This document shows positions 57,338 to 60,896 of a DNA stretch of 64,000 nucleotides, one piece after another. Where the stretch lies: contig NZ_AYMU01000011.1 of assembly GCF_000633395.1 (NCBI RefSeq), positions 186,001 through 250,000 of the forward strand, read 5' to 3'. This DNA is from Pseudomonas sp. PH1b. GTDB taxonomy: Bacteria; Pseudomonadota; Gammaproteobacteria; Pseudomonadales; Pseudomonadaceae. Position 1 is the stretch's first letter, and each line of letters starts with the position of its first letter. The notes beneath the pieces were generated by a model. It was not told where the DNA came from and did not search any database. It saw only the letters and a list, made by a program, of their open reading frames with translations. The position numbers and the translations under genes were made by a program.

Positions 57338-58763
57338 ATCCTGCCTGTCCGGGCTGACCCGGGCCCTGCGCAAGGGCGAATCCCTGGCCCGGCGCCGGGG
57401 CCGGGCGGTGCTGGTGGTGTACAGCCTGGCCGCCGAGCGCCTGGACCCGTTGCGGTTGTTTGCCGCCAACCGCCAGGTGCTAGGCCAGAGCCTGTTCTGG
57501 TCCAGTGACCAGGGCGCCCTGGCCCTGGCCGGGTTCGGCTGCACCGAAGAAATCAGCCCGCCGGCCGCCGAGCGTTTCGCCGCCTGCACCCAGGCCTGGC
57601 GCCAGTTGCTGGAACAGGCCCACCAGGTGGGGCCGAAGCGGGCGTACCTGTGTGGCGGTTTTGCCTTCGACCCCCAGGGCCCCGGCAGTGCCCAGTGGCA
57701 GTCGTTTGCCGCCACTTCCCTGGTGCTGCCACGGATCCTGTTGCTGCGCGAAGGTGAGCAGCAGCATTGGCTGTTCAGCCTGTGGGTCGAGCCTGGCGCC
57801 GATGTAGCCCAGAGTGCCGGCACCCTGGAAGCGGAATGGACGCTGTTGCACGCGCGCTACAGCCACGCCCCGGCGGCGCAGCTGCCCGCCGAGGCCAGGG
57901 CCGAGGACGATCCGCAGGCCGCCGGGCGCTGGCAGGACTGTGTTGCCCAAGCGATTGCACGGATCCAGGGTGGCGAGTTGAGCAAAGTGGTGCTGGCCCG
58001 GGAAGTCTGCCTGCGGGCGAGTCGCAGCATTCCCTGCGGGCCCTTGCTGGAGAATCTCCAGGTGGCCTATCCCCAGGCGTTCCTGTTCGCCTTCAGCCGC
58101 GGCGACAGCTGCTTCCTCGGCGCCACGCCGGAGCGCTTGGTCCGGGTGGCCCGGGGCACTCTCAACACCGTGGCCCTGGCCGGCACCTGCGCCCGCGGCC
58201 TGCATGAACAGCAGGACGTGGAACTGGGCCAGGCCCTGATGGACAGCGCCAAGGACCGCCACGAACACGCCCTGGTGGTGCAGACCCTGCGCGAGGCCCT
58301 GCAGCCGTACTGCGCCATGCTGGAGATTCCCCCGCAGCCGCAGCTGCACCGCCTGGCCCACGTCCAGCACCTGCTGACCCCGGTGCTCGGGCGCCTGCGG
58401 CCCCAGGTCGACCTGCTGCAAGTGGTCGATGCCCTGCACCCGACCCCGGCGGTGGGCGGCCTGCCACGAGCCAAGGCCCTGGACTACATCCGCGAGCACG
58501 AGCAACTGGATCGCGGTTGGTACGCCGCCCCGGTGGGCTGGCTGAATGCCGAGGGCGACGGCGAGTTCGCCGTGGCCCTGCGTTCGGCGCTGATTCGTGG
58601 CAACCAGGCGCACCTGTTCGCCGGCTGCGGCATCGTTGGCGAGTCGGACCCGCAGAGCGAATACCAGGAAACCTGCCTGAAATTACGCACCATTGGCGAA
58701 GCTTTGCGCCCGCCAGCAGCCGCGCCGAGCGTGGCCGCGAGCGGCGGACAGGGCGCCTTGTAG
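57330..58763 (+). CDS. pchA: PchA, isochorismate synthase
   Basis: A 477-aa chorismate-utilising enzyme (MenF/TrpE-like fold). Its catalytic C-terminal half contains GELSKVVLAREVCLRA, FSRGDSCFLGATPERLVRV, LAGTCARG, DRHEHALVVQTLREAL, HPTPAVGGLPRAKAL and FAVALRSALIRGNQAHLFAGCGIVGESDPQSEYQET. It converts chorismate to isochorismate for PchB. ATG 57330 follows GGAG. Last gene of the operon; its stop codon lies inside a long hairpin. Confidence 0.94.
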   Translation: MSESCLSGLTRALRKGESLARRRGRAVLVVYSLAAERLDPLRLFAANRQVLGQSLFWSSDQGALALAGFGCTEEISPPAAERFAACTQAWRQLLEQAHQVGPKRAYLCGGFAFDPQGPGSAQWQSFAATSLVLPRILLLREGEQQHWLFSLWVEPGADVAQSAGTLEAEWTLLHARYSHAPAAQLPAEARAEDDPQAAGRWQDCVAQAIARIQGGELSKVVLAREVCLRASRSIPCGPLLENLQVAYPQAFLFAFSRGDSCFLGATPERLVRVARGTLNTVALAGTCARGLHEQQDVELGQALMDSAKDRHEHALVVQTLREALQPYCAMLEIPPQPQLHRLAHVQHLLTPVLGRLRPQVDLLQVVDALHPTPAVGGLPRAKALDYIREHEQLDRGWYAAPVGWLNAEGDGEFAVALRSALIRGNQAHLFAGCGIVGESDPQSEYQETCLKLRTIGEALRPPAAAPSVAASGGQGAL

Positions 58764-58842
58764 CCGCTGCCGCAGGCTCGCGGCGATGTTGAAGGCACCG
58801 AGGCCCCTTCGGTGCCTTGCGCAGCCTGCGGCAACGGCTACA
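58759..58842. terminator. nested long hairpin at the end of the pch operon
   Basis: Outer arms 58759-58778 and 58823-58842 pair at 19 of 20 bases (TGTAGCCG-TGCCGCAGGCT); inner arms AAGGCACCGA (58792-58801) and TCGGTGCCTT (58809-58818) pair perfectly around a 7-base loop. The pchA stop codon is in the first arm. There is no T-run, so it may be a REP-type intergenic element that ends or protects the mRNA. Confidence 0.7.
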
Positions 58843-58938: not shown

Positions 58939-59382
58939 ATGAAATCCGACGTGTTGATCAACACCCTGCTAAGGCTCGAAAACGCCTTCAACGATCCTGG
59001 CGAGAATCCTCTGCGGCGCATCGACGCCTGCATCGCCGAGGTGGCCCGGTTGGCCGACCCGGCCAGCATTGGCCCGCTGTTGTCGTTGCTCGACGATGAG
59101 GCGGAATATGACGAGGTGATGTTTTCGCTGATTCACGCCGCTGAGCATTTCGATCTTCCGGTGTATGTGCCGGCGTTGCTGGCGGCGCTGCCCGGCTTGC
59201 AGGAAAACAGCCCGAGGTGGGCGCAGATCCTTTTCACCCGGGTGCTCAACAGCGAGCCCGCGCGCCTGGAGATGGTCCGTGCCTTGCGCGAAGCGGTGCC
59301 AGCGGTCAAGGCGGCGGCCCTGGAATTGGCCGATTCGATTTGTAGGAGCCGGCTTGCCGGCGAACCGCGCAGCGGCCGGTGA
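58939..59382 (+). CDS. Imm30-like immunity protein, orphan, 3' end within a REP element
   Basis: A 147-aa cytosolic helical protein. LLSLLDDEAEYDEVMFSLIHAAEHF and SPRWAQILFTRVLNSEPARLEMVRALRE resemble the Imm30 family, which neutralises polymorphic toxins. No toxin or secretion gene is adjacent. The last 13 codons (from CRSRLAGEP) are encoded by the first REP arm of the downstream repeat array, so the original C-terminus has probably been replaced by repeat insertion. A ribosome site is weak (AGCAGCG before ATG 58939). The Imm30 assignment is by motif resemblance and is not certain. Confidence 0.6.
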   Translation: MKSDVLINTLLRLENAFNDPGENPLRRIDACIAEVARLADPASIGPLLSLLDDEAEYDEVMFSLIHAAEHFDLPVYVPALLAALPGLQENSPRWAQILFTRVLNSEPARLEMVRALREAVPAVKAAALELADSICRSRLAGEPRSGR

Positions 59383-59935
59383 GTGCGGTTCATGGCGAGG
59401 GAATGCGGTGTTCTTGCGGGCCCCTTCGCTGGCAAGCCAGCTCCTACGGCTGGCGCGATAGCGGCGTCGTCCTTGCCGGCGAACCGCGCAGCGGCCGGTG
59501 GGTGCGGTTCAAGGCGAAGGAATGCGGTGTTCTTGCGGGCCCCTTCGCTGGCAAGCCAGCTCCTACGGCTGAGCAAATGTGCACCCTGTAGGAGCCGGCT
59601 TGCCGGCGAACCGCGCAGCGGCCAGTGAGTGCGGTTCAAGGCGAAGGAATGCGGTGCTCTTGCGGGCCTCTTCGCTGGCAAGCCAGCTCCTACGGCTGGC
59701 GCGATATCGGCGTCGTCTTTGCCGGCGAATCGCGCAGCGGCCGGTGGGTGCGGTTCATGGCGAGGGAATGGGGTGTTCTTGCGGGCCTCTTCGCTGGCAA
59801 GCCAGCTCCTACGGCTGGCGCGATAGCGGCGTCGTCCTTGCCGGCGAACCGCGCAGCGGCCGGTGAGTGCGGTTCATGGCGAGGGAATGCGGTGTTCTTG
59901 CGGGCCCCTTCGCTGGCAAGCCAGCGCCTACACAG
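59340..59935. repeat. tandem REPIN-type array, five units
   Basis: Five copies of an about 120-bp unit start with TTGCCGGCGAACCGCGCAGC at 59354, 59473, 59600, 59719 and 59838 (spacings 119, 127, 119 and 119). Each unit ends with TTCGCTGGCAAGCCAGC-CCTAC, the inverted counterpart of TGTAGGAGCCGGCTTGCCGG, the familiar Pseudomonas REP sequence. Units 1 and 3 carry the full left arm; the others have a shortened one. Many overlapping open frames here are artefacts. The array fills the gap between two convergent genes. Confidence 0.9.
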
Positions 59936-59942
59936 GTCCGCT

Positions 59943-60896
59943 TCAGCTGGTGGGGATGGCGCTGGGTGGCGGGCCGGCGAGGGTATGGCCGGGCTTGGCC
60001 CGCAGCAGGGCGTTGATGGCCTGGCCGTAGCCCTTGCCCGCCAGGCTCATGCTGTTGTTATGGGTGCCGCCGGGCACCAGCAGCAGTTTCTTCGGCTCTT
60101 GCGCCACCTTGAACAACTCCTTGCTCAGGCGCGCCGGTACGTAGTCGTCCTTCAGGCCATGGACCACCAGCAACGGCATGCCGATCTCGCCGATCTTGTC
60201 GATGGAATCGAACTTCTGCGACATCAGCCAGCGCACCGGCAGGGAGGTCTTGGTCACCGCCGCAGCGGCATCGGCCAGGGTGGTGAAGGTGGATTCGACG
60301 ATCAGCCCGCGGGCGGCAATCGGTGTGTGCTCGCTGGCGGCCTGGCGACCCAGTTCGGCCGCCAGGTCGATGGCCACCGCGCCGCCCAGGGAGTGGCCGT
60401 AGATCAGGCGCTTGCTGGCGTCGGGTTGCAGTTCCTTGAACCGTTCCCAGGCGATGCGCGCGTCTGCGTACACGCTGCTTTCCGAGGGCAGGTCGCCGTG
60501 GCTCTGGCCAAAGCCGCGGTAGTCGATGGCCAGCACCGAGTAACCCAGGGCGTGCAGTTGCTCGATGCGAAACAGCTGGCCGGTAAGGTTCCAGCGCACT
60601 CCGTGCAGGTAGAGGATCGCCGGGGCATCGGCGCGTTGCGCCGGCCACCACCAGGCGTGGATGTTCTGCCCGGCCTTGAAGCTTTTCGGCTTGAGTTCGA
60701 ACTCCTGCACCGTGCTCGGCAGGCCGCGGTACCAGCCGGCGGTGCCGGGCTCGATGCGAAACACCAGTTGGCGTTCCTGGTGTTCGAGTACCGCGCAGCT
60801 CACCGGCAGGCCGACCACTAGCGCGGCCATGCACAGCAGGGAAAACCAGCGACGGCGCAGGCGCTGGGACAGGGTTGGGGACATGGAAGGTTTCAC
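59943..60896 (-). CDS. alpha/beta hydrolase (BEM46/YfhR-like), membrane-anchored or exported
   Basis: A 317-aa serine hydrolase. An N-terminal hydrophobic segment (WFSLLCMAALVVGLPVSC) suggests a signal anchor or, less certainly, a lipoprotein. ILYLHGVRWNLTGQLFRIEQL, IDYRGFGQSHGDLPSE, YGHSLGGAVAIDLAAEL (nucleophile Ser), VVHGLKDDYVPARLS (Asp) and PGGTHNNS (His) form a complete triad. Physiological substrate unknown. ATG 60896 or ATG 60884 could start the protein. It lies next to the second siderophore receptor but is not obviously cotranscribed. Confidence 0.85.
   Translation of the reverse strand: MKPSMSPTLSQRLRRRWFSLLCMAALVVGLPVSCAVLEHQERQLVFRIEPGTAGWYRGLPSTVQEFELKPKSFKAGQNIHAWWWPAQRADAPAILYLHGVRWNLTGQLFRIEQLHALGYSVLAIDYRGFGQSHGDLPSESSVYADARIAWERFKELQPDASKRLIYGHSLGGAVAIDLAAELGRQAASEHTPIAARGLIVESTFTTLADAAAAVTKTSLPVRWLMSQKFDSIDKIGEIGMPLLVVHGLKDDYVPARLSKELFKVAQEPKKLLLVPGGTHNNSMSLAGKGYGQAINALLRAKPGHTLAGPPPSAIPTS

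Follow-up and report, generated by a model that had tools for sequence, protein, structure and literature searches.

A tandem array of REP doublets in Pseudomonas sp. PH1b and the linkers it has in common with other array loci

Tandem clusters of repetitive extragenic palindromic (REP) sequences, and of REPINs (REP doublets forming hairpins), are already known, and were in print between 2010 and 2013. In Pseudomonas fluorescens SBW25, 16 tandem REPIN clusters are described, the largest of four REPINs and one REP (Bertels and Rainey 2011, PMC3116915). In P. fluorescens Pf-5, the GTAG-1 family of REPs, subtype ST2, is expanded, with many members tandemly reiterated, and the large clusters of this strain consist mostly of reiterated units together with flanking DNA (Di Nocera and colleagues 2013, PMC3733652). 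REP class PF3 is present in 457 copies in P. protegens Pf-5 (Nunvar and colleagues 2013, PMC3686654, which also gives a decay model and REP class counts). The BIME-2 elements of Escherichia coli and the bacterial interspersed mosaic elements (BIMEs) of Stenotrophomonas are tandem modules of opposed REPs, and one third of the detected REP-associated tyrosine transposases (RAYTs) are directly associated with a BIME (PMC2817692). Cleavage by TnpAREP is the subject of PMC8266576, and PMC3390384 treats REPs as markers of older regions in the P. protegens group; the formation and spread of REPIN/BIME arrays are called unresolved (PMC8266576, PMC2817692). Here we describe a tandem REPIN array in a 64,000-nucleotide stretch of the genome of Pseudomonas sp. 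PH1b (contig NZ_AYMU01000011.1, positions 186,001 to 250,000), termed 'the window'; positions are those of the window unless a contig or locus is named.

The array, at 59341-59931, consists of five REPIN units that stand head to tail between two convergent genes (Table 1). Unit starts are 119, 127, 119 and 119 bases apart, and the order is unit 1, linker A (GGCTGGCGCGATAGCGGCGTCGTC), unit 2, linker B (GGCTGAGCAAATGTGCACCCT), unit 3, linker A, unit 4, linker A and unit 5. An initial annotation, made from the sequence alone, had described five tandem units with opposed arms, of which units 2, 4 and 5 had shortened left arms; both descriptions hold, the shortening being of 14 bases. In the complete units, 1 and 3, two inverted REPs lie close together with GTAG outward, as in REPINs generally; units 2, 4 and 5 are degenerate as REPINs, their short left arms lacking GTAG. 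Units 2 and 5 begin with CTTGCCGG and unit 4 with TTTGCCGG. The missing 14 bases are defined relative to a sister array, described below, in which linker A is followed by a full arm, and their loss probably reflects a deletion between two CTTG words. Of 91 bases compared, a single one differs between units 1 and 5, and the pair of units 1-2 is repeated by the pair 3-4 at a spacing of 246. Tandem Repeats Finder reports both periods (59353-59931, period 119, 4.8 copies, score 916; 59341-59931, period 246, 2.5 copies, score 952); the other three of its five rows for the window score 50, 56 and 64. Head-to-tail modules of REPIN plus linker make the array BIME-like. Tandem modules of opposed REPs are what it has in common with BIME-2 and the Stenotrophomonas BIMEs, whose REP sequences differ from those here. 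Tandem REPIN clusters come with flanks in SBW25, as they do here; tandem reiteration is likewise common to GTAG-1 ST2, and a possible identity of the window REP with PF3 is a lead only.

The likely reading is a BIME-like array built of tandem units from a REPIN family that has one matching RAYT in the genome, grown in place and made mosaic through exchange between arrays. The RAYT, or its ancestors, would have seeded the REPs. Replication slippage or unequal exchange between units that are nearly identical would then have enlarged the arrays where they stood, and their identical 23-base arms would allow blocks of loop plus linker to be exchanged or copied from one array to another, which would render the arrays mosaic. 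In the window, an old local unit, with the loop and linker B also found at the corresponding locus of a relative (G397), was most likely combined with linker A, whose oldest detectable locus would be on contig C8. The 14-base CTTG deletions were probably carried along in later copying.

Table 1. Units and linkers of the array, and the two genes on either side of it
Feature	Position	Strand	Remarks
Imm30-family gene	58939..59382	+	Pfam PF15565, E 1.8e-16; last codons and stop inside unit 1
REPIN unit 1	59341..59447	+	full left arm 59342-59364, loop, right arm 59425-59447
Linker A (GGCTGGCGCGATAGCGGCGTCGTC), first copy	59448..59471	+	also at eight other loci of the genome
Unit 2	59472..59566	+	left arm 14 bases shorter; right arm 59544-59566
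Linker B (GGCTGAGCAAATGTGCACCCT)	59567..59587	+	resembles linker of G397 array at window locus
Unit 3	59588..59693	+	full left arm 59588-59610; right arm 59671-59693
Linker A, second copy	59694..59717	+	
Unit 4	59718..59812	+	shortened left arm; right arm 59790-59812
Linker A, third copy	59813..59836	+	
Unit 5	59837..59931	+	left arm shortened; one change in right arm 59909-59931
Alpha/beta hydrolase gene, convergent	59943..60896	-	stop codon 11 bases beyond array

The genome to which the window belongs (G000), a 7.43-Mb draft in 89 contigs, contains 292 exact copies of a 22-mer from the left arm and 967 matches to a degenerate REP pattern, the reversed control giving none in either case. GTAG followed by an imperfect palindrome, in many copies, places these REPs in the GTAG superfamily, and in 337 of 341 arms from the fetched loci the variable base pair is complementary (C-G 176, T-A 159, G-C 2). 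Strict junctions (REPIN, linker, next REP) number 208. The sampled clusters number 54, of which 18 consist of a single copy and the other 36 hold two to seven arm copies, cluster size being the larger of the left-arm and right-arm counts with up to 6 mismatches. The sample is not a census: it derives from the first 100 of the 292 exact matches (contigs C1 to part of C5), and includes neighbours in the fetched stretches, L061 and L063 (both picked for their similarity), the RAYT locus and the window array itself. A tandem REPIN array is thus ordinary in this genome, and the expectation, voiced in the initial annotation, that REPINs are usually single or in small clusters fails here. Such arrays are also commoner than in the SBW25 account, a comparison between our partial sample (36 clusters with two or more arm copies) and figures obtained by another counting method.

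Within an array, linkers and loops are alike. Linkers of the same array have a mean identity of 0.878 (132 pairs, 30 arrays) and those of different arrays one of 0.516 (4719 pairs); for loops the corresponding means are 0.877 (179 pairs, 33 arrays) and 0.541 (6842 pairs). This likeness argues for amplification in place rather than separate insertions. Spacing is nearly constant inside most arrays, and ranges from 90 to 158.

Linkers also recur from locus to locus. Allowing up to 3 mismatches, linker A has 25 matches in G000 and one in each of four relatives, G374, G397, G082 and G345 (reversed control, in the same order of genomes: 1, 1, 1, 2 and 2), and 23 of the 25 fall at nine loci, each of which reads as a REP-linker-REP junction. 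Detailed comparison with relatives covered two of these nine, the window and L061, and L063 was matched to G397. A second linker, linker 1, has 55 matches at 20 loci in G000, and 3, 6, 2 and 0 matches in G374, G397, G082 and G345 (reversed control: 1, 1, 0, 0 and 0); at one of the 20 loci (L219) it follows the last right arm and forms no junction. Overall, 17 of 35 G000 arrays share a linker with another locus at an identity of at least 0.75, compared with 4 of 105 when linkers are shuffled. The window array is left out of this count because the parser missed linker A, the arms after it being shortened. Sharing within the relatives is weak or moderate (G397, 6 of 21, shuffled 6 of 63; G374, 6 of 18, shuffled 2 of 54). 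The single linker A match in G397 is a REP-linker-REP junction at L211; this locus and L063, on contig C8 of G000, have both flanks in common (93-94%), as well as loop (0.90) and linker (0.81), which makes the C8 locus the best candidate source of linker A. Linker A accompanies unlike loops (best loop identity 0.47-0.52, L061 versus L063, L064, L068 and L074), as expected of mosaic arrays. Two linkers recurring at 9 and 20 loci are a feature here that goes beyond the likeness to GTAG-1 ST2. Linkers common to many loci do not figure in the available part of the SBW25 account (PMC3116915), and the Stenotrophomonas inter-REP segments, unlike these linkers, are stated to have no mutual homology (PMC2817692). 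In the parts of the searched literature that were available, no account of a linker family common to several loci came to light, which is no proof of absence.

The closest counterpart of the window array is a sister array 142 kb away on the opposite strand (G000, contig C11, 102452-102929), 88% identical over query bases 532-989. It has four units with the loop of the window array and linker A. Across the nine units of both arrays, 19 of 91 columns are variable, with five polymorphic in each of the two arrays, one fixed and 13 private. Units with the short arm occur in both arrays. At the place of the sister array the relatives (stretches L168-L171) carry other repeats. In G397 there is one REPIN, of the GTAGGAGC type and with a different loop; G374 has one REPIN with a loop of the G397 kind and a degenerate arm; and G082 and G345 have an inverted pair of another GTAG repeat (GTAGCCGC type), no REP of the array class being found at this place in these two; elsewhere in the stretch the right arm has a single weak match, with 6 mismatches. 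To judge from these sequences, a resident REPIN at the sister locus seems to have given way to a multi-unit block. The common loop, linker, five polymorphisms and short-arm variant of the sister array, together with the nine linker A loci, suggest that units travel between loci as linker-bearing blocks.

Array content differs between species at the same place. At the window locus, G397 has one full and one broken unit with the window loop and a B-like linker, beside the upstream gene, followed by hydrolase-like fragments, then by an Imm30-type gene, and finally by a lone right arm next to the hydrolase. In G374 there are four right arms in a different, 86-base unit, with left arms 4-5 mismatches off, and G082 and G345 have no REP of the array class in 19 kb around the locus. 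The comparison set has one genome per species. Seven arrays could be matched between genomes by their flanks (86-96% identity; one pair by a single flank), drawing on 21 G397 and 19 G374 stretches chosen from listed junctions and linker matches rather than from all junctions. Arm counts are 5/2, 4/2, 5/4, 5/3, 4/2, 4/3 and 4/4, unequal in six of the seven, and identities between genomes (linkers 0.52-0.81, loops 0.62-0.90) compare with 0.72-1.00 and 0.85-0.94, respectively, within them.

A RAYT gene with matching REPs, for which the initial annotation had suggested a search, is present in the genome. One gene (locus L081) matches the RAYT model NF047646 with 152.2 bits (cut-off 80), and is flanked on both sides by inverted REPs of the array's family, with exact arm matches on the gene's strand; on one side, a REP-linker-REPIN piece carries linker 1. 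RAYT matches were found in six of nine genomes searched (G000, G345, G313, G094, G092 and G381), and neither the protein search nor the model search found one in G374, G397 (96% complete) or G082. Strict junctions number 122, 97 and 70, respectively, in these three, and the other RAYT-bearing genomes have few: 1 in G345, 6 in G092, and none in G313, G094 and G381. A simple link between array richness and RAYT presence is ruled out, three array-rich relatives being without a match and five genomes with one holding 0 to 6 junctions. Junction counts are not fit for close comparison across species because the strict pattern misses other arrangements; G092 has runs of alternating REPs by a looser pattern, yet only 6 strict junctions. 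G345 has 141 REP-pattern matches and one strict junction, and G082 has 461 and 70, though the two are very similar at the window locus.

Several observations weigh against growth in place combined with exchange between arrays. Any part of the RAYT in array upkeep is putative, because G374, G397 and G082 are array-rich without a RAYT match. Exchange is inferred from shared sequence, and with a draft of 89 contigs the unit counts could be wrong. In two of the matched pairs (L063/L211 and L196/L173), likeness between genomes is about as high as within them. The main spacing is 109 or 110 in 18 of 36 arrays, so that spacing alone is no marker of an array. A flank that is like the linker of its array, with at least 10 of 14 positions matching, stands 5' of the array in 5 of 28 cases (10 of 756 in controls) and 3' of it in 1 of 24 (3 of 552 in controls); few arrays therefore show signs that a REPIN was simply duplicated along with the flank it has now, L071 being the clearest case of such a flank.

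Could local growth account for everything, one REPIN and its flank having been duplicated by slippage or unequal crossing-over to give five units? The near-identity of the units, the repetition of units 1-2 and 3-4 at a spacing of 246, and the homogeneity of linkers and loops within arrays agree with this, but linker A is absent by eye from both flanks of the window array, and linker B matches either flank at only 3 of 14 positions. The initial annotation had preferred slippage or recombination to separate insertions. Separate insertion is indeed very unlikely, but local growth alone leaves unexplained why linker, loop, short-arm variant and five polymorphisms recur 142 kb away, and linker A at nine loci, and as the sole process we consider it unlikely. 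Some REPINs in SBW25 do insert into or beside existing ones (PMC3116915); five such insertions at one spot, however, would not account for a 60-base loop that is almost unchanged in all five units, nor for a linker and a short arm that each recur three times. The shared linkers and arm deletions rule this out, and we give it practically no credence. Arrays might instead be made by the RAYT, a REP being cut and a module of REPIN plus linker copied by rolling circle and inserted ready-made (Nunvar and colleagues 2010, PMC2817692). A preformed array accounts for linkers and polymorphisms common to two loci, linker 1 (55 matches, 20 loci) lies in a REP pair beside the RAYT, and among the four array-rich genomes only G000, which also has the most strict junctions, has a RAYT match. 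The 70-122 strict junctions in three relatives without a match speak against this origin, as does the fact that no arrival of a ready-made array at an empty site was seen, G397 and G374 already having a resident REPIN at the second locus; we regard it as rather doubtful. Finally, repeats might have been collapsed or joined chimerically in the draft. Most short reads would not span the 591 bases of the array, and the genome is in 89 contigs, but the units differ from one another at several positions, and arrays with at least two copies of an arm are likewise present in G374 (4 contigs) and G082 (1 contig), which makes an artefact most improbable. Plasmid origin was considered as well and set aside, the array having no match in a plasmid collection searched in 'distant' mode.

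Another possibility is that the array has been retained because of a function, for example transcription termination, protection of mRNA 3' ends or gyrase binding. It occupies the space between two convergent genes, and the RNA fold of 59300-59960 is better than those of all 20 shuffles (z -6.39). Binding of gyrase and of integration host factor (IHF), and effects on messages, are reported for the E. coli elements (PMC3686654, PMC2817692). Against this, G082 and G345 lack an array of the same class at the window locus, unit numbers vary among genomes, and terminator-like sites, of which 2 were found, are no commoner than in shuffles (mean 2.1). A simple transcription terminator is ruled out by the same figures, and retention for any of these functions is, in our judgement, improbable. 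As single-stranded DNA (units 1, 2, 3 and 5 folded, 200 shuffles), the hairpins of units 1 (z -3.86) and 3 (z -4.42) beat all 200 shuffles; short units 2 (z +0.90) and 5 (z +0.38), folded with part of the preceding linker, show no excess. An Rfam RNA was also rejected: with E limited to 1 there are eight matches, none of which comes near its gathering score, and six of them are to microRNA models, which hairpins in general can match. The immediate effects of the array were probably modest, the end of an Imm30-type gene being replaced and strong hairpins being placed between convergent transcripts.

Unit 1 forms the end of the Imm30-type gene in the window; the G397 gene has a different, longer end. 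Of ten loci whose neighbourhoods were compared, only that of G397 has an Imm30-type gene. There (L108, 5423-5548), two hydrolase-like fragments precede this gene, which suggests a duplication upon its arrival. A second, different GTAG repeat (GTAGCCGCTGCCG...) lies at 58760-58841 of the window, with a strong DNA hairpin (z -5.09); its GTAG contains the TAG stop of the upstream gene, which we take to be PchA in an (enantio-)pyochelin setting. G082 and G345 keep a similar GTAG pair at this position. In G397, the same stop marks the start of an array of the other class, that of the window REP, and in G374 there is a remnant.

The window array is real and well formed, and what is new here is modest evidence on array spread, provided by the shared linkers. 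Tentatively, the spreading unit may be the linker-bearing block of several REPINs rather than the single REPIN, copied from array to array and replacing resident REPINs. If so, blocks would spread through rolling circles made by RAYT or by exchange at identical arms, and arrays would replace resident REPINs along with their deletions and polymorphisms, so that array content would turn over much faster than the adjacent DNA. The linkers are natural tags, two of them present at 9 and 20 loci and one beside the RAYT. These tags merit a second look, and so do the relatives that are rich in arrays but have no RAYT match: together they make a workable system in which to separate RAYT-driven copying from plain recombination.
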